From contig JAIBBR010000044.1 in NCBI GenBank assembly GCA_019694575.1, positions 1-36,203 on the forward strand: a stretch of DNA of 36,203 nucleotides, read 5' to 3'. Under the pieces are notes generated by a model, which had not been told where the DNA came from, searched no databases, and was given only the letters and a program-made list of their open reading frames with translations. Below are positions 3,848 to 13,584 of the stretch, in pieces. Source of the stretch: Myxococcaceae bacterium (GTDB lineage Bacteria; Myxococcota; Myxococcia; Myxococcales; Myxococcaceae). Every line of letters starts with the position of its first letter. Positions within the stretch are counted from its first letter, which is position 1. The position numbers were made by a program, and so were the translations under genes.

Positions 3848-5560
<1,713 letters not shown>

Positions 5561-5923
5561 TCAATGCGTCGCGAAACCGACCAAGGCCTGCAATTTGTCG
5601 AGGTCGACGGGCTTGGTCAGCGTCAGCGAAACACCCTTGCGCATGCCTTTGTCGACGATTTCGTCGGTGGCGTACGCCGTCACCAGAATGATCGGCACAC
5701 TCTTGTAACGCGGGTCGGCTCGCAGCTGCTCTACGAAGGTAATGCCATCGACATACGGCATCATCAGGTCGGTGATGATTAAGTCGAAGGTCTTGCCTTC
5801 TAAAATGTGCATGGCCTCTGGCGGGCCCGAGGCAGTCTCAACCAAATAGCCACGCCGTTTCAAAAACGTGTGGAGCAGCATGCGCTGCGCAGGGTCGTCA
5901 TCGACGATGAGAATCTGGGCCAC
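5561..5923 (-). CDS. Single-domain response regulator
   Basis: A receiver-only protein of about 120 residues. It has the acidic pair in LIVDDDP, the phospho-acceptor Asp in IITDLMMP, the conserved Thr in LVTAY and the Lys in LTKPVD. It has no output domain, so it must act through protein contacts, as CheY-like proteins do. It starts at a GTG (5923, or a second GTG at 5932); the much longer open frame upstream is only the antisense of the neighbouring TPR gene. It lies just upstream of groEL on the same strand, but the groEL promoter-like sequence between them suggests separate control. A partner kinase cannot be assigned from position, although the hybrid kinase lies about 2 kb away. Confidence 0.88.
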   Translation of the reverse strand: MAQILIVDDDPAQRMLLHTFLKRRGYLVETASGPPEAMHILEGKTFDLIITDLMMPYVDGITFVEQLRADPRYKSVPIILVTAYATDEIVDKGMRKGVSLTLTKPVDLDKLQALVGFATH

Positions 5924-5992
5924 GGGGCCCACTGTGTAGCACGGAAGTGCAGCGTTGCACTCGGAATGGTTTAAGGCTTGTGTGCCCTTTCG

Positions 5993-6856
5993 ATGATCGC
6001 TAATCAACTGTGGGAAGAGGCCGAAGCCGCCCTCGTGGCGGGCGACCGGGGCCGCGCGCTCGATACTGTCGACGAGGCGCTTCACCAACCCCTCGACGAA
6101 GAAGGGCTGCACGCCGCGCTCGACTGGCTCGAGACCATTGCCCATGGGGCCTCGCAAACAGAAAAGGCTGACGCCTTGACGCTGCAGGCAGTGGCCTTCA
6201 ACCAGTTGGGAGCGTTCGCCGACGCGTTGACTGCAGCTGACCGGGCGTTGGCGCTGGTGCCCGCGGCTGTTCCCGCACGCATCGAGCAGGCGATGGCGCT
6301 TTTCGAATTGGCGCGCTTTCCCGCTGCCGCCCAAGTGCTTGAACAGCTCGAGCGCGACGCTCCACAAGAAGCGTGGGTGCATTTTGCGTTGGGGCTGCTG
6401 GCCGAACGGCGTGGTGATGAGCCAGCTGCGCAGCGTTGCTTTGCCCGCGCAGCGACTTTGGCCCCCGCCGACTTTCCGCTCGCGGTGCGAATTGACGAGC
6501 AAGAGTTCGACGCGGTGATCAACGACGCGATCGCCGACTTGCCAGAAATGGCCTCCCAGCACTTGGACAAAGTGGTGATCTGCGCCGAGCCCTTTCCCTC
6601 TGACGATGACTTACAAGACGGCGACCTCAGCCCCACGGTGCTCGGCTTTTTTCGCGGTGTGCCCGTGGGCGCGCGCAGCATCAGCTCGAGCAGTGATCAC
6701 GCTCCGGCGTCAATCGTGCTTTTCCAACGCAATTTAGAGCGGGCGGCCAAGACCCGCGCTGAATTGATTGAGCAAATCGCCATTACCGTGGCCCATGAAG
6801 TCGGCCACTTGCTCGGGCTCGACGAAGACGACCTTGAAGAGCGTGGGCTGGGTTAA
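5993..6856 (+). CDS. TPR protein fused to a minimal zincin metallopeptidase domain
   Basis: A 287-residue protein with two parts. Residues 1 to about 165 are alanine-rich helical repeats of TPR type (for example QAVAFNQLGAFADALTAADR). The C-terminal ~125 residues match the small zincin family (PF06262-like). They contain the zinc site HEVGHLLGLDEDDLEERG at the extreme end, preceded by the GFFRGVP and ASIVLFQRNLER strands. HEVGH is the HExxH motif, and a downstream acidic residue would complete the site. There is no signal peptide, so the protein is predicted to be cytoplasmic. Substrate and physiological role are unknown for this family. The ATG at 5993 is the first ATG in frame. The TPR part probably selects a protein partner. 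Confidence 0.8.
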   Translation: MIANQLWEEAEAALVAGDRGRALDTVDEALHQPLDEEGLHAALDWLETIAHGASQTEKADALTLQAVAFNQLGAFADALTAADRALALVPAAVPARIEQAMALFELARFPAAAQVLEQLERDAPQEAWVHFALGLLAERRGDEPAAQRCFARAATLAPADFPLAVRIDEQEFDAVINDAIADLPEMASQHLDKVVICAEPFPSDDDLQDGDLSPTVLGFFRGVPVGARSISSSSDHAPASIVLFQRNLERAAKTRAELIEQIAITVAHEVGHLLGLDEDDLEERGLG

Positions 6857-6943: not shown

Positions 6944-7783
6944 GTGAAGGAACGCTACCAAGAGATCGAAGAGAAGAACGCCAAGCTCAAAGAGACATTG
7001 AGCACCAAAAAGCCCGAGGTGTTGGACTTCTTGGAGCGTTTCGAGATGTCTTGGGTGTACCACGACAACGCGCTCGAAGGCGTGGTCTATACACCGCAAG
7101 AGCTCATGGCGGCGCTTCGCCCTGGTGCGGTCGCGGCCGAAGCGTCGTTGATGCCAATCGTTCTCGAGATTCGCAACCACAAAGCGTGCGTCGAGTTCAT
7201 TCGCGAAGAGGCGAAGTTACACGGCAAAAAGCACCTCACGTTGAACATGGCTTTGGTGCGGCGCATTCACGACTTGCTCTCGGGCAACACGGCCGAAGCA
7301 CAAGCGGCCCGCGCGGCGGTTGAGCGTCGCGAGCGCACCGAAAAAGAGTTGGCGAAAGAGAAAGAGCGCGCGGGTTTTCGCAAAGACATGCCTTTGCACC
7401 GTACGTATTTTCACGAGATCGCGCAGCCCAAAGACATCGCCGCCAAGCTCGAGAAGCTGCTCGATGGCACCACCCTGGCCGACTTTCGCGAGATGCACCC
7501 TATCGATCAGGCGGCCCGCATGCAGTACGGCATCATCAAGGTGTTTCCCTTCACCGACCACTCGGGGAAAGTCGGCCGCATGATCTCGAACATGATCTTG
7601 CTGCGACACAACTTGCTCCCCGTCATCGTGCACTCGGTAGAGCGCCAGAAATACTACGAGTCGTTTCGCGGCTCAGAGTCGTCGTTCCGCAACTTGTTCA
7701 TGGACGCGATGGAAAACAGCCTCGACAACGGCCTCAAACACTTTGCTGAGCTGGCACGCCGAGCGCGGGCCGCGGCGGGTTAA
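6944..7783 (+). CDS. Fic-fold protein with degenerate catalytic motif
   Basis: A 279-residue protein aligned with Fic/DOC proteins by the helical core ending in a Fic-like segment (MQYGIIKV, the motif, then MISNMILLRHNLLPVIV). Canonical Fic enzymes use HPFxDGNGRxxR to transfer AMP or other phosphate groups to proteins. Here the equivalent residues 201-212 read FPFTDHSGKVGR. The catalytic His is Phe, the Gly-Asn pair is His-Ser and the first Arg is Lys. The N-terminal segment DNALEG resembles the inhibitory helix motif but lacks its Ser/Thr. A charged coiled-coil insert (about residues 120-145) precedes the core. The start is a GTG at 6944. It probably forms an operon with the DHH phosphoesterase 25 nt downstream. 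Canonical AMP transfer is unlikely. Confidence 0.78.
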   Translation: MKERYQEIEEKNAKLKETLSTKKPEVLDFLERFEMSWVYHDNALEGVVYTPQELMAALRPGAVAAEASLMPIVLEIRNHKACVEFIREEAKLHGKKHLTLNMALVRRIHDLLSGNTAEAQAARAAVERRERTEKELAKEKERAGFRKDMPLHRTYFHEIAQPKDIAAKLEKLLDGTTLADFREMHPIDQAARMQYGIIKVFPFTDHSGKVGRMISNMILLRHNLLPVIVHSVERQKYYESFRGSESSFRNLFMDAMENSLDNGLKHFAELARRARAAAG

Positions 7784-7808: not shown

Positions 7809-8882
7809 GTGAGTGACGAAAACAACCAGCCGCCTTCGGTGGCGCACCTATCGCCCAAAGCGAAGGTCGAACGGCTGATCAAAATGGTGCGTGGGCGCAA
7901 GCGCGCGCTCATTCTCACCCACGACAACCCAGACCCCGACTCGTTGGCGTCGGCCGTCGCCCTAGCGTGGATTCTCGAGCGCCGCGCCCGGTTGCAGTGC
8001 CACATCGGCTACGGCGGTATCATCGGCCGCGCTGAAAACCTGGCCTTCGTGCGGGTGCTGAAGCTGCCGGTTTTTCCCATCGCTGATGTGCAGTTCGACG
8101 ATTACGACGTCTTCGCCCTGGTCGACACGCAAGAAACGGTCGGTAATCACGCCCTGCCTGACTACCTGAAGGCCGATATCGTGATTGATCACCACCCTCC
8201 GCGCGAAGGCGCCCCGCCCGTGGCCTTTCTCGACGTCGGCGGCCACTACGGTGCGACCTCAACCCTGCTGACCGAATATCTGCGCGCGGCCCGGGTAGAA
8301 CCAAGCCCCGAGCTCGCCACCGCGCTTTATTACGGCATCAAGGCTGACACGCGCGACTTGGAGCGTGAAACACGCGAGCCCGACGTACGCTGTTACACCT
8401 GGCTTTTTCCACGCATTGATCGCGCGCAACTGGCGCAAATTGAGCACCCTGAACTGCCGGTGCGCTATTTTCAGCTCTACCACGCGGCGATTGAGCGGGC
8501 GAAGGTGTACTCCACGGCAGTGATGACTGACTTGGGCCAGGTATACACGCCCGACATGGTGGCAGAAGTCGCCGAGCGCATGAGCTTCATCGACGTCGTG
8601 AAATGGTCACTGGCGTATGGGGGCTACAAAAACCAGCTCTACTTGTCGCTCAGGGTGAGCGACCGGCGCATGAACGCGGGCCGGCTGGTGCGTGACGTGT
8701 GCGAAGGCTTGGGAGGTTCAGCGGGCGGTCACGGCAGCATGGCCGGGGCGCGGTTGCCCTACCCTGGCGCGGGCCCGGCACGCGCGGCGCTCAAACGTGA
8801 AGTCGTCAAACGCTTCAAGCAGGCGTTCGGGGTTGAAGGCGAGCGAGGCACGGCATTGCTCAACCTCAGCGACATGTCGTGA
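7809..8882 (+). CDS. DHH-family phosphoesterase (NrnA/RecJ-like)
   Basis: A 357-residue DHH superfamily protein. Motif I is THDNPDPDSLAS (residues 38-49), motif II is LVDTQ (Asp near 106) and motif III is DHH (127-129); together these bind two Mn ions. The C-terminal DHHA1-like part contains GGSAGGHGSMAGARLP near residue 310, the substrate-binding loop. Such proteins hydrolyse short RNA oligonucleotides, pAp or cyclic dinucleotide products; which one applies cannot be told here. The GTG at 7809 was chosen because the frame further upstream overlaps the Fic gene. Its TGA overlaps the GTG of the cysteine desulfurase gene (GTGA), so the two are translationally coupled. Confidence 0.88.
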   Translation: MSDENNQPPSVAHLSPKAKVERLIKMVRGRKRALILTHDNPDPDSLASAVALAWILERRARLQCHIGYGGIIGRAENLAFVRVLKLPVFPIADVQFDDYDVFALVDTQETVGNHALPDYLKADIVIDHHPPREGAPPVAFLDVGGHYGATSTLLTEYLRAARVEPSPELATALYYGIKADTRDLERETREPDVRCYTWLFPRIDRAQLAQIEHPELPVRYFQLYHAAIERAKVYSTAVMTDLGQVYTPDMVAEVAERMSFIDVVKWSLAYGGYKNQLYLSLRVSDRRMNAGRLVRDVCEGLGGSAGGHGSMAGARLPYPGAGPARAALKREVVKRFKQAFGVEGERGTALLNLSDMS

Positions 8883-10048
8883 TCTACTTAGATCACAACG
8901 CGGGCACTCCGCTGTGGCCTGAAGTTGCGGGCTTTCTTTCACAAGCGTGGTCGACCGAGCCAGGCAACCCTTCGAGCGTGCACAAGGCCGGGCGCGCGTG
9001 GCGGGCGCGGCTCACCCAAGCGCGCGAAACCATAGCCCGGCTGATCGGCTGCGAGCCGCGTGAAGTGATTTTTACCGCGTCTGGTTCTGAATCGGCGGCA
9101 CTGGCGCTCAGCGGGGCCTGGCGCGCACGGGCCGAGGTGACGAAGAAGCGCATCGTTTCGACCACCCTCGAGCACCCCTCTGTGCTGGGAGCTCTTGCCC
9201 TGCTCGAAAACCAAGGCGCCGAGGTGATTCGTGTCGCCCCCGGCGGCGACGGGCGCGTACCGCTCGAAAGAGTGCTCACGCAGCTCACACCGAACACAGC
9301 GCTTTGCTCGGTGATGTGGGCCAACAACGAGACTGGGGTGCTGCAACCCGTCGCTGAGCTGGCCCGGGCGTGTCAGCAGCGCGGCATCGTCTTTCACACC
9401 GACGCAGTGCAGGCCTACGGCAAGGTGACGGAAACACTGCGCGACGTACCGGCTGACTTGATCTCGATCGCCGGCCACAAGCTGGGGGCCCCTGCCGGCA
9501 CGGGTTTGTTGATCGCCCGCCCGAATGTCGATTTGGCGGCGCTGATTCCCGGGCACCAAGAGAAAGGCCGTCGCGGCGGCACGCCCAACGTGGTGCTGCT
9601 CGAAGCGTTGGCGCTGGCGCTCGACTTGAGCCTGCAGCGGCGTGAACGTGAAAGTGCTCGGCTGCAGGGCCTGCGCGATCAATTCGAAGTGTCGTTGCGC
9701 CGAGAATTGCCGAGCGTGATTATTCACGGCCACGGCGTGCCGCGGTTACCTAACACCAGCAACTTTCGCGTGCCGAACACTGACGGAGAAGCACTGCTGA
9801 TCGCGCTCGACCTCGACGGCATTTGTGCCTCCTCGGGCGCGGCGTGCGCGTCGGGCTCGCTCACCCCTTCACATGTGCTCACGGCAATGGGGCTCTCGTC
9901 GGCCGAGGCGCAATCGACGCTGCGGTTTTCATTCGGCCACAGCACCACCCAGGCAGAAATCGACACCGCGGTCGCGGCGATTGTGAAGCACGTGGCGGCT
10001 TTGCCTCCTGCCGTCGAAAACCCGGGCACCACGCGCCTGCGGGGTTAA
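8879..10048 (+). CDS. Cysteine desulfurase (NifS/IscS-like)
   Basis: A 389-residue class V aminotransferase-fold enzyme that uses PLP to remove sulfur from L-cysteine as a protein persulfide, feeding Fe-S cluster or thio-nucleoside assembly. It has the N-terminal YLDHNAGTP, the ASGSESAAL cofactor loop, HTDAVQA (Asp for the PLP nitrogen) and the Schiff-base lysine in SIAGHKLGAP (residue 201). The active-site Cys lies in SSGAACASG near residue 323, in a loop of NifS/IscS group I type. No iscU, iscR or tRNA thiolase gene is adjacent; its partner is instead the DHH phosphoesterase, coupled by a 4-nt overlap. It may therefore serve housekeeping sulfur transfer or a specialised acceptor. Confidence 0.92.
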   Translation: MIYLDHNAGTPLWPEVAGFLSQAWSTEPGNPSSVHKAGRAWRARLTQARETIARLIGCEPREVIFTASGSESAALALSGAWRARAEVTKKRIVSTTLEHPSVLGALALLENQGAEVIRVAPGGDGRVPLERVLTQLTPNTALCSVMWANNETGVLQPVAELARACQQRGIVFHTDAVQAYGKVTETLRDVPADLISIAGHKLGAPAGTGLLIARPNVDLAALIPGHQEKGRRGGTPNVVLLEALALALDLSLQRRERESARLQGLRDQFEVSLRRELPSVIIHGHGVPRLPNTSNFRVPNTDGEALLIALDLDGICASSGAACASGSLTPSHVLTAMGLSSAEAQSTLRFSFGHSTTQAEIDTAVAAIVKHVAALPPAVENPGTTRLRG

Positions 10049-10088: not shown

Positions 10089-10949
10089 ATGACTCGACAA
10101 AACAGAGCGATTGCAGGCACCGTGTCATGGGTAGACCTGTCGACGCCGAATCTCGAAGAAGCAAAGAAATTCTACAGCGGCCTTTTCGGGTGGACCTACG
10201 CCAGAGGCGACGCCGAGCTTTCTGACTACACCACCGCGCAGCTCGATGGCCGGCGGGTGGCGGGCATGGCTTCGCCCATGCCGAACTCGCCCATGCCCCT
10301 CAACTGGACCCTGTACTTCGCGACCGATGACGCCGACGTCACCGCCCAGAAAGTGCTCGAATACCAAGGCACTTCGGCGATGCCTTTGATGGACATTCGA
10401 GAGCAAGGCCGCATGGGCTATTTTCAAGACCCCACGGGTGCGTTCTTCGGTATCTGGCAGGGCAAGCAGCACCAAGGTGCTGAAACGATTGAAGAGCCCG
10501 GCAGCATGGTTTGGCATGAGGTGTACACCCGCGACGTGCAGCGAGCGCGTGACTTCTACGCGCGCGTCTTCGGGCTTGAAACGAAGAAGCTCGATGACTC
10601 GAGCCTTGAGTACTGGACACTGCACAAGGGCCCGAAGACGGTATGCGGGGTGATGGAAATGACATCGTCTGTTCCCCCAGGTGAGCCGCCCCGGTGGAAC
10701 ACATATTTTGAAGTGGGCGACGCCGATGCCGCGGGCCAAAAAGTCACCTCGCTCGGAGGAAAGGTGATTAGCCCCCCCTTCGATACTCCGTGGGGCCGCA
10801 TGCTTACCGTTGCCGACCCGCACGGCGCGACGTTTTGCCTGGTGAAGTCAGCGCCACCCGTACCTACAAGCACCCGTCAGGTGGGCTCGGCGAACAGCCC
10901 GCGCACCACGGACGAAATCGCCAGTGGCGTACCTACGCGTTCATCGTAG
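10089..10949 (+). CDS. Two-domain VOC (glyoxalase/bleomycin resistance-fold) protein
   Basis: A 286-residue protein with two vicinal-oxygen-chelate domains. The first (about residues 1-125) opens WVDLSTPNLEEAKKFYSGLF. The second (about 135-255) opens WHEVYTRDVQRARDFYARVF and closes on PHGATFCLV. Paired VOC domains form a full metal site in one chain, and members act as glyoxalases, dioxygenases or hydroxylase-like enzymes; the substrate is not evident. GGAGG before the ATG at 10089 supports the start. The last ~25 residues lie beyond the VOC fold and overlap, tail to tail, the 3' end of the convergent kinase gene by 73 bp, so this extension is probably unstructured. Confidence 0.87.
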   Translation: MTRQNRAIAGTVSWVDLSTPNLEEAKKFYSGLFGWTYARGDAELSDYTTAQLDGRRVAGMASPMPNSPMPLNWTLYFATDDADVTAQKVLEYQGTSAMPLMDIREQGRMGYFQDPTGAFFGIWQGKQHQGAETIEEPGSMVWHEVYTRDVQRARDFYARVFGLETKKLDDSSLEYWTLHKGPKTVCGVMEMTSSVPPGEPPRWNTYFEVGDADAAGQKVTSLGGKVISPPFDTPWGRMLTVADPHGATFCLVKSAPPVPTSTRQVGSANSPRTTDEIASGVPTRSS

Positions 10950-11785
10950 AGCCCGGTGAGCGCGTCGGCGTACTCCCGCGCACTGGCGAAACGTTCTTCA
11001 GGCGTGGGAGCGAACGCGCGCTCCAGCACCAACTCGAGCTCAGGCGAAATGTCGGGCCGTACTTCACGCACCGGCGTGTACTGCTGCCGGCGAATCTTCT
11101 CGAAGACGTCGTCGGGAAAATTGCCGGTGAACGGCCGCTGCAAAGTGAGCAACTCGTAGAACATCACCGTCGCCGCCCACAGATCGACCGCGGGTGAAAT
11201 GTGCCCCTCCAATGCTTCAGGCGACAGGTAATAAGGTTTGCCCATCAGCTCTTTTGCGCCACCGTCCATCAACAGGCGGGCCACGCCGAAATCGCCGAGC
11301 TTCAGCTCGCCAGTACGCGAGACAAAAAAGTTCGAAGGGCCAATGTCGCAATGCACGATACCGAGCGGCTTGCCAGTGGGCCCACGAAGCGAGTGCGCGT
11401 AAGACAGCGCTTCGAGCAACGTCTGGGTCAGATACACCGCGAAATCGATTGGCCACGGCACGTTTTTCTTACGACAGCGGCGAATCACCTGCCCCACGTC
11501 GCGGCCTTCGACGAGCTCCATCACCATGTAATAGGCGTCGCCATCTAAGCCCACTTCATGCACCCGTACGATGTTGGGGTGCTCCAAAAAGCGGCTCAAG
11601 TCAGCCTCGCTGCCGAACCGCGTCAGCGCTTCAGGGTCTTTCTCGAGCTCGGGCAATAGCCGCTTCAACGCAAATTCTTGCCCGGCGTGCACACCTTTTC
11701 TCGCACGGCCCCGATAGACTTCGGCCATGCCGCCTTTGCCCAACAAGCCGATCAGCTCGTAGTTGCCGAGCCGGGCGGGCATCAT
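10877..11785 (-). CDS. Ser/Thr protein kinase (HCD variant)
   Basis: A 302-residue soluble bacterial eukaryote-like kinase, almost only the catalytic domain. It has the Gly loop LLGKGGMAEVY, the ATP lysine in FALKRL, a helix-C Glu region and the catalytic loop VHCDIGPSNFF. Metal-binding LGDFG and the SPEAL end of the activation segment follow. In the catalytic loop the usual HRD is HCD and the Lys two residues after Asp is Gly (CDIGPSN instead of RDLKPEN). It is therefore a non-RD kinase with an altered phosphate-binding residue, and activity may be low or independent of activation-loop phosphorylation. There is no membrane segment. Its ATG overlaps the stop of the upstream TPR gene (ATGA), so the two are translationally coupled. 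Confidence 0.9.
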   Translation of the reverse strand: MMPARLGNYELIGLLGKGGMAEVYRGRARKGVHAGQEFALKRLLPELEKDPEALTRFGSEADLSRFLEHPNIVRVHEVGLDGDAYYMVMELVEGRDVGQVIRRCRKKNVPWPIDFAVYLTQTLLEALSYAHSLRGPTGKPLGIVHCDIGPSNFFVSRTGELKLGDFGVARLLMDGGAKELMGKPYYLSPEALEGHISPAVDLWAATVMFYELLTLQRPFTGNFPDDVFEKIRRQQYTPVREVRPDISPELELVLERAFAPTPEERFASAREYADALTGLYDERVGTPLAISSVVRGLFAEPT

Positions 11786-12750
11786 TTGGTTTTACGGCTT
11801 TTGTCGGGGCGGTTTGACGCTTCGGCAAGCAACTTTTTGAACTCGGGGTCTTCGCGCAGCTCGTTGACGTCAGGGTCTTGCCGGGCGCGATCAGCCAGCG
11901 TGGTGGCGCCGGGGTAACTGAAGGCCACTTTCAATGCTTCAATCGCCTCGCGCTTTTGCTGCAGCTTCGTTCGCGCACACGCCAGGTTGTAATAAATGTC
12001 TTGCAGCTCGAGATCATTGGCCTTGCTGGCACGCGCCGCCTTGAGCGCTTCTTCGAAGTCAGCCGCCGCCGCGCTCGGGTTTTTCAAGTTGATGTGCAAC
12101 ACACCCAACATCGACCACACTTTATGCACGCTGCTGTCTCGCGCCAGGCTCGCTTGCGCCAGCGTCGCCGCTTTCGCCAAATTGCCTTCTTGCATCGTGC
12201 GATAGGCATCGGCGAACAATCGCTTCGCTTCGTCTTGCAGCTTCTGTTTGTTGGCGCTGTTTTTTTGCACCAGTTGCGCCGCGCTCAAGCCGACTTCGCG
12301 TTCTAAATGCTGCAGATCATCGCGTGACGCCGAAACACCCTTGAGCCGTTTGCCGTCTAACCCGGGCGAACGACAACCGGTGTCGAGCTTCACTTCGCCG
12401 TTGAGCGCGTCTTGCGTCACCAGGGCTAAAAAGGGGTACGTCTTTTCTTTCTCGCAGCCGGGGCCTTCTTGGCAAACCAACAGCGAGCCGACGAAGACAT
12501 TGCCTTCCATCGCGCCAGTCAGAACTTGGAGCTCAGACGCGAAGTTGCAAGCCCCACCCCCACGCACTTTGCCGGCGACGCGCCCGTCACTGGTTGACAG
12601 CTCGACGATACCGAGCTCTCCCAGCTTATAGGGCCCCGACATCGCAGGTTCTGCCGCCCGCGCGCTTGCCGCCAACAGCACACATAAACCCGCTGTTTTG
12701 ATATGCGATTTACCAACCAAGAGATTACCGAACTTAGCGAAAGTGCCCAT
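11782..12750 (-). CDS. Exported TPR-repeat protein coupled to the kinase
   Basis: A protein of about 322 residues with an N-terminal signal peptide: a hydrophobic stretch TAGLCVLLAASARA ends in AAEPAM, a likely signal peptidase I site near residue 35. The mature N-terminal part (about 40-150) contains several cysteines (GGGACNF, LLVCQEGPGC, TGCRSPG) that could form disulfides in the periplasm. The C-terminal half (about 190-300) is TPR-like (YRTMQEGNLAKAATLAQASL, then VWSMLGVLHINLKNPSAAAA). It overlaps the kinase start by four nt. The two products would be on opposite sides of the membrane, so how they cooperate is unclear. The start is uncertain: the frame is open to 12792 and a shorter TTG start is also possible. 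Confidence 0.78.
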   Translation of the reverse strand: MGTFAKFGNLLVGKSHIKTAGLCVLLAASARAAEPAMSGPYKLGELGIVELSTSDGRVAGKVRGGGACNFASELQVLTGAMEGNVFVGSLLVCQEGPGCEKEKTYPFLALVTQDALNGEVKLDTGCRSPGLDGKRLKGVSASRDDLQHLEREVGLSAAQLVQKNSANKQKLQDEAKRLFADAYRTMQEGNLAKAATLAQASLARDSSVHKVWSMLGVLHINLKNPSAAAADFEEALKAARASKANDLELQDIYYNLACARTKLQQKREAIEALKVAFSYPGATTLADRARQDPDVNELREDPEFKKLLAEASNRPDKSRKTK

Positions 12751-12767
12751 GAAGTGCAGTTCACATA

Positions 12768-12796
12768 TTGCGCAATCGCATGCGGTGTTCATATTC
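12768..12796 (+). promoter_or_regulatory. Putative promoter of 6S RNA
   Basis: TTGCGC (12768-12773), 17 nt, then ATATTC (12791-12796; CATATT one base earlier also fits). This lies about 30 nt before the closing stem of the 6S RNA and within the 5' region of the divergent TPR gene. Both boxes match the consensus only in part. Confidence 0.3.
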
Positions 12797-12827
12797 TTGC
12801 GGGAGAGGAAAGGAGCTTTTTGAAGGG

Positions 12828-13013
12828 CTGTCCCCTGCGGGGTGCGTGATGGGCAGCGAAAATTCGAACCGATACGTTCATTAAGGGAGTCTTACGGCGG
12901 TCAGGGTGCAAGCCCTCCTTCGAGAGGGAAGCCGAAAGGTCGCCATTTAGAGTCCCACCTGAATCACACAGGGTTCAATGGACGTTGACCACACGGCCCA
13001 TGGCGGGGGACTT
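12828..13013 (+). ncRNA. ssrS: 6S RNA
   Basis: A 6S-type RNA that would bind the sigma-70 RNA polymerase holoenzyme by mimicking an open promoter. A 9-bp closing stem is formed by 12830-12838 and 13003-13011, with a second ATGGGC/GCCCAT stem just inside. The 3' half keeps the Proteobacterial order: GCAAGC, a CCCTC/GAGGG hairpin, GAAGCCGAAA, CCCACCTGAATC and GGGTTCAATGG. The E. coli RNA has GCATGC, CTCGG/CCGAG, GAAGCCTTAAAA, CATTCACCTTGAA and GGGTTCAAGGG in the same order. It lies directly before 5-formyltetrahydrofolate cyclo-ligase, the classic ssrS-ygfA arrangement. The exact ends are estimated from the closing stem; T5 follows the 3' side. Confidence 0.87.
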
Positions 13014-13584
13014 TTTGTTTCGGACCAAAGCTGAGGCTCGGCGAATGCTTGAGGCACGGCGTCGGGCTTTGAGTTCCGAAGAAGTCGTGGCGAAGGGACG
13101 GGAGGCTCAAAAGCGCCTCCTGTCCCTTTCGTTTTTTCAAACGGCCCAGGTGGTTGGTTTATATGCGGCGCAGGCCTTCGAGGTGCCTACGTCGGCCCTG
13201 GCGGCGGCCATTCGGCAACGGGGAGGTACAGTATGTTACCCGCGCGTGGTACCTGCTCTTCGCCCACTCACCTTTCACGCGGTTTCGAGCGAAGAGGCAC
13301 TGCTGGCAGCCGTTTACGGTATTCGTGAGCCCGCACCGAGCGCACCTGAAACACCGCTACAGGCCATTGACGTGTTGGTGGTGCCGGGAGTGGGTTTTAC
13401 CCGCGATGGCCAACGGTTAGGGCGCGGAGGAGGCCACTACGATGGCACCTTGGCCGACCCGCGTTTTCGGGGCCTCAGCGTAGGGCTGGCATTTGCCGAC
13501 TGCGTGATCGATAAGCTCCCCACAGAGGGTCACGATCGCAACGTGAATTGGGTCGTCTCAGACATCGAGGCCGTGAGCACGTGA
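13000..13584 (+). CDS. 5-formyltetrahydrofolate cyclo-ligase
   Basis: About 194 residues, the normal length. The enzyme converts 5-formyl-THF to 5,10-methenyl-THF with ATP, clearing an inhibitory folate. Visible motifs are the N-terminal KAEARRMLEARRRALSSEE, VCYPRVVP near the middle, VLVVPGVGFTRDGQRLGRGGG (phosphate/ATP loop, about residues 125-145) and HYDGTLAD. The start is ambiguous. The ATG at 13000 has no ribosome site and sits inside the 3' closing stem of the 6S RNA. A TTG at 13015 follows GGGGGA by four nt and gives a typical short N-terminus; a TTG at 12985 is also open. The stop overlaps the GTG of the hydrolase gene. Confidence 0.9.
   Translation: MAGDFLFRTKAEARRMLEARRRALSSEEVVAKGREAQKRLLSLSFFQTAQVVGLYAAQAFEVPTSALAAAIRQRGGTVCYPRVVPALRPLTFHAVSSEEALLAAVYGIREPAPSAPETPLQAIDVLVVPGVGFTRDGQRLGRGGGHYDGTLADPRFRGLSVGLAFADCVIDKLPTEGHDRNVNWVVSDIEAVST

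Follow-up and report, generated by a model that had tools for sequence, protein, structure and literature searches.

A phylum-wide family of class II Fic proteins without the catalytic histidine in Myxococcota

The window analyzed here is a stretch of 36,203 nucleotides of Myxococcaceae DNA. Judged from comparative sequence analysis, the product of its gene at 6944-7783 is a class II (FICD-type) Fic protein in its Myxococcota form, without the catalytic histidine, and may well act mainly by binding a ligand or partner. Fic proteins are usually patchy in distribution, mobile and defined by the catalytic histidine. The bacteria of the phylum Myxococcota live in soil and water.

Results

An intact Fic-fold gene

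The features discussed below are the following.

6944-7783, plus strand: Fic-fold gene without the catalytic His (GTG start, 279 amino acids; Pfam match and FICD-matching AF2 model)
7058-7084, plus strand, codons 39-47: N-terminal inhibitory-helix motif YHDNALEGV (FICD counterpart YHTVAIEGN)
7376-7429, plus strand, codons 145-162: flap FRKDMPLHRTYFHEIAQP, the top-conserved 18-residue window
7544-7579, plus strand, codons 201-212: altered Fic loop FPFTDHSGKVGR (canonical HPFxDGNGRxxR)
7643-7657, plus strand, codons 234-238: RQKYY, with Arg234 and Tyr237 invariant, common to FICD-type Fics
7809-8882, plus strand: DHH/DHHA1 phosphoesterase gene (NrnA-like, distant match), likely on the same transcript as the Fic gene
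8879-10048, plus strand: NifS/IscS-type cysteine desulfurase gene, the next gene in the same direction

The open reading frame at 6944-7783 is intact, with an in-frame stop four codons before the GTG start. It matches Pfam Fic/DOC (PF02661) at E 1.4e-10 (42.3 bits against a curated cut-off of 24), as do 36 of 36 family members, and this match together with the Fic fold places the family in Fic/DOC. No NCBIfam model names the protein. The nearest solved structures found by phmmer were Bacteroides BT_2513 (3cuc, E 7e-13) and then human FICD (E about 1e-9). The orthologues have open frames that start at the same position as the window gene. A sequencing error or pseudogene at this site is ruled out by these intact orthologues and by the close-pair dN/dS values given below.

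Structure prediction, proposed as a check in a preliminary description of this DNA, recovered the FICD fold. The AF2 models of the window protein and of L046 (pLDDT 77 and 83, respectively) both match FICD with Z 26.6-26.7 over 235-241 residues, inhibitory helix included; for the window model against FICD 4u0u, Z is 26.6 over 235 residues. The input alignment was thin (nine sequences), and the flap has pLDDT below 50 in both models and forms no hairpin.

The window genome carries one copy of this family in addition to several canonical Fic genes. On one contig (G000:C152; L003, L009 and L010), three Pfam-Fic matches fall in separate short reading frames, seemingly canonical fic genes that are broken or duplicated.

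The altered loop is a conserved motif of its own

Where the motif HPFx[D/E]GNGRxxR is expected, and where the FICD loop reads HPFIDGNGRTSR, residues 201-212 of the window protein read FPFTDHSGKVGR. We read the motifs directly in 87 distinct sequences, rather than in all of the roughly 176 genomes, and took the sequences below 85% identity as 62 representatives. Residue 201 is Phe in 82 and Tyr in 5 of the distinct sequences, and His in none. The catalytic His of the AMPylating motif HxFx[D/E]GN[G/K]RxxR is therefore replaced by Phe or Tyr in 87/87, and its Asn by Ser in 56/62 representatives. Pro202, Gly208 and Arg212 are invariant among the representatives; Ser207 is found in 56/62, Lys or Arg209 in 54/62, and Asp or Glu205 in 53/62.

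The orthologue alignment thus gives the altered loop a family motif, [FY]P[FY]x[DE]xSG[KR]xxR. The preliminary description had reported an intact and apparently maintained gene with the catalytic His replaced by Phe, and all of this holds: the frame is open here and in the orthologues, and the motif is conserved across them with no decay. Two contrary outcomes were also looked for. None of the orthologues read has HPFxxGNGR, and the residues at the site are not randomly spread.

In 14/62 representatives the metal-ligand position (D/E205), the phosphate-Arg position (K/R209) or both have been lost, with the flap, the inhibitory acid and Arg212 retained (L096, one of the 14, has two flap substitutions). 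This argues against a conserved Mg-dependent phosphotransfer. From the loop sequences we strongly infer that His-dependent AMPylation has been lost in the family.

The inhibitory helix is kept and the flap is fixed

The inhibitory-helix motif had been described as degenerate; we find it largely kept, with the gatekeeper acid (Glu45) and the invariant Gly46 in place. Residue 45 is acidic in 62/62 representatives (Glu in 51, Asp in 11) and His40 is invariant as well. Compared with canonical helices, Ser/Thr is changed to Asp/Glu at position -4 and the final Asn is lost, so that HDNALEG departs from the class II pattern [S/T]xxxE[G/N] at its first position. The two marks of class II, the helix gatekeeper Glu and the last Arg of the loop, are represented by Glu/Asp45 and Arg212 in 62/62, and the helix aligns with that of FICD. 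Residues were matched to FICD by sequence alignment and by FICD numbering, including the Glu234-Arg374 pairing.

The flap of Fic proteins is normally variable. Here, the flap (145-162, core RKDMPLHRTYFHEIAQP) ranks first in conservation among 182 windows of 18 residues. Arg146, Tyr155 and His157 are invariant in the 62 representatives, Pro150 and His152 are each present in 61/62, and Arg153 in 57/62. A comparison with seven canonical class II Fics shows Pro150, His152, Arg153, Tyr155, Phe201, Ser207, His230 and Gln235 to be specific to the family, whereas Arg146, His157, Arg212, Arg234 and Tyr237 are largely shared (a His157 equivalent occurs in six of the seven).

Near-universal distribution and mainly vertical descent

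Orthologues were found in 59/60 relatives. Across Myxococcota, 178/195 genomes had a match at E 1e-3, or about 176 after re-examination, when G117 and G175 proved to hold other Fic proteins only and were left out of the family count. The gene is kept in genomes of 1.3-2.7 Mb, including the 1.3 Mb genome G172. G117 (99% complete) has neither the family nor the DHH gene, and G013 has no Fic-like gene and a partial DHH match at a contig edge; these absences reflect either loss of the locus or assembly gaps.

Phylogenetic analysis placed the family in one clade (support 99/100, stem 1.24) beside an outgroup of FICD-type Fics, in a midpoint-rooted tree in which some outgroup rows are long-branched. 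The tree broadly tracks taxonomic families, as vertical descent predicts. Most simply, the His was lost once, before Myxococcota diversified, and inheritance has been mainly vertical since. Close pairs have dN/dS mostly of 0.06-0.14 (0.21 in one of ten pairs), which indicates purifying selection. We set aside the overall median of 0.61 because synonymous sites saturate at such distances in GC-rich genomes.

A scan of a genome collection with a single query sequence returned nine loci, all titled myxobacterial or deltaproteobacterial. A phage or plasmid origin was considered and rejected: no relative of the His-less Fic was found among viral contigs, and plasmid matches were distant Fics only, of about 25% identity or less, the six that were read all having HPF loops.

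Neighboring genes

The preliminary description placed the gene in an operon with a DHH phosphoesterase and a cysteine desulfurase. The same-strand neighbors are confirmed; from the sequence, the likely start of the DHH gene is GTG 7809, 26 bp past the Fic stop. The arrangement does not stand as a general clue to function. Fic-DHH linkage was seen at 26 of the 50 loci with enough downstream sequence, in most families of one order, and was absent at every locus inspected outside that order. In three reduced genomes (G020, G033 and G158) the Fic gene is retained and there is no DHH match. The Fic gene is thus generally independent of these partners, and we did not adopt a function exerted through them. 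Clustering of neighbors outside the order revealed no common partner of note, and several clusters were antisense reading frames.

Other neighbors were also recorded. Beyond the desulfurase, window positions 10877-13584 carry a Ser/Thr kinase gene on the opposite strand and a gene for a 5-formyl-THF cyclo-ligase; in several of the order's families, both remain close to the Fic-like gene (L043, L056, L069, L073, L076). In the reduced-genome Myxococcaceae G020 and G033 (L052, L053), the Fic-like gene directly precedes the opposite-strand protein-kinase gene, the intervening DHH and NifS genes being missing. Upstream (3848-6856) lie genes for GroEL, a response regulator and a TPR plus Zincin_1 protein, in an order matched in one relative (L045, L077); in the other long loci, no TPR-zincin gene was seen close to the Fic-like gene. 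Further upstream (161-1702) there is a match to an IstB-like ATP-binding protein (ORF 824-1702; IS21 or another AAA+ type ATPase). L052 and L053 likewise have a homologue of it upstream of their Fic-like gene.

Discussion

Near-universal single copies, an aromatic residue in place of His and strict preservation of another part of the site suggest that the His-less Fic probably has a core role distinct from ordinary AMP transfer. We propose that an ancestral class II Fic lost its catalytic His, in the simplest case a single time and before Myxococcota diversified. The resulting protein would lack AMPylation of the known kind. Loop, inhibitory helix and flap would instead enclose a pocket for one conserved ligand or partner, which could be a nucleotide or some other phosphate compound, or else a stretch of protein that the flap grips. 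The protein may then work as a sensor or adaptor, mainly through binding rather than AMP transfer.

Some observations weigh against this binding role. A re-tooled enzyme would equally be expected to have many invariant polar residues near its pocket, several of those seen here (His40, Arg146, His157, Arg234 and Tyr237) are common to active FICD-type Fics, and the flap is modelled with low confidence. A re-tooled enzyme, in which His152, Arg153, Tyr155 or His157 of the flap, or the helix acid, catalyzes another reaction in place of the loop His, is a less likely but serious second reading. The flap is the top-conserved window and holds new, near-invariant polar residues that canonical class II Fics lack, and the drift at the Mg-ligand position would fit a metal-free reaction, for which AvrB, with glycosyl transfer that needs no divalent cation, offers a precedent (PMC10866546). 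However, the window model matches AvrB weakly, with Z of about 10 compared with 26.6 for FICD, and His157, which is also present in 6/7 canonical comparators, need not be new. A bolder version seems possible but rather unlikely: throughout the phylum, catalysis by this Fic enzyme would have shifted from the loop His to the flap and helix acid, and its product would be a so far undescribed modification on a core target in Myxococcota.

The acid at 45 and Arg212, both in 62/62, would also suit a deAMPylase-like hydrolase in which the helix acid positions water, as Glu234 of FICD aligns the catalytic water, and some other group takes over from His363, for which the role of general acid has been proposed (PMC8373988). 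FICD deAMPylation also requires His363 and a divalent cation (PMC8373988), whereas in this family the His363 equivalent is replaced throughout, D/E205 is kept in 53/62 and so lost in several members, and position 45 changes from Glu to Asp in 11/62. We regard hydrolysis of this kind as improbable. Fic genes are often toxins and the motif is altered, as might be expected of a toxin-antitoxin element or a decaying remnant. However, a FicTA system, a toxin with its cognate antitoxin, would be patchy and mobile, and the family is near-universal, single-copy, mainly vertical in the phylum and kept in 1.3-2.7 Mb genomes, with low close-pair dN/dS, no viral-contig match and only distant Fics on plasmids. 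This explanation is already largely refuted, and we consider it very unlikely.

Comparison with known systems

The protein resembles FICD/HYPE (4u0u, 7b7z) and BT_2513 (3cuc) in its whole fold, the acid-bearing inhibitory helix, the Pro, Gly and Arg of the loop, and the RxxYY helix. It differs from FICD/HYPE in having no catalytic His and no TPR domain, in the loop changes of Asn to Ser and Gly to a variable residue, and in a remodelled flap (P-L-H-R-T-Y).

Loss of the Fic His is already known from Doc clade D2 and AvrB. Doc clade D2, like the window family, is a natural clade in which the catalytic His is replaced throughout, by Gln in its case (45 sequences, motif QxFx[DE][GV]NKR; Khater and Mohanty 2015, PMC4454073). 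That clade is Doc-type, whereas the window family is class II Fic with Phe or Tyr, phylum-wide and single-copy. AvrB, a rhamnosyltransferase of the Fido superfamily that depends on UDP/dTDP-rhamnose, performs glycosyl transfer on a Fic fold without a Fic motif (PMC10866546) and so sets a precedent for other chemistry, but it is a plant-pathogen effector with an inserted domain. Deviant Fic motifs also occur in Campylobacter fetus Fic2 (PMC5651007) and Bartonella BepC (PMC8401265), both of which, unlike the window family, retain the catalytic His. Fic2 is functional and acts as a toxin that Fic1 neutralises; no enzymatic activity has been detected for BepC, which works by binding GEF-H1 (PMC8401265).

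In the open literature we found no description of a class II Fic that has Phe or Tyr, a fixed flap and a single copy per genome throughout a phylum, and nothing on a His-less family among reports of Fic in Myxococcota; the form is apparently undescribed there. With the His apparently lost before diversification, the inhibitory helix kept and the flap fixed, the family is a natural test of the Fic fold beyond its standard chemistry. Its function can be tested directly in the genetically tractable Myxococcus xanthus.
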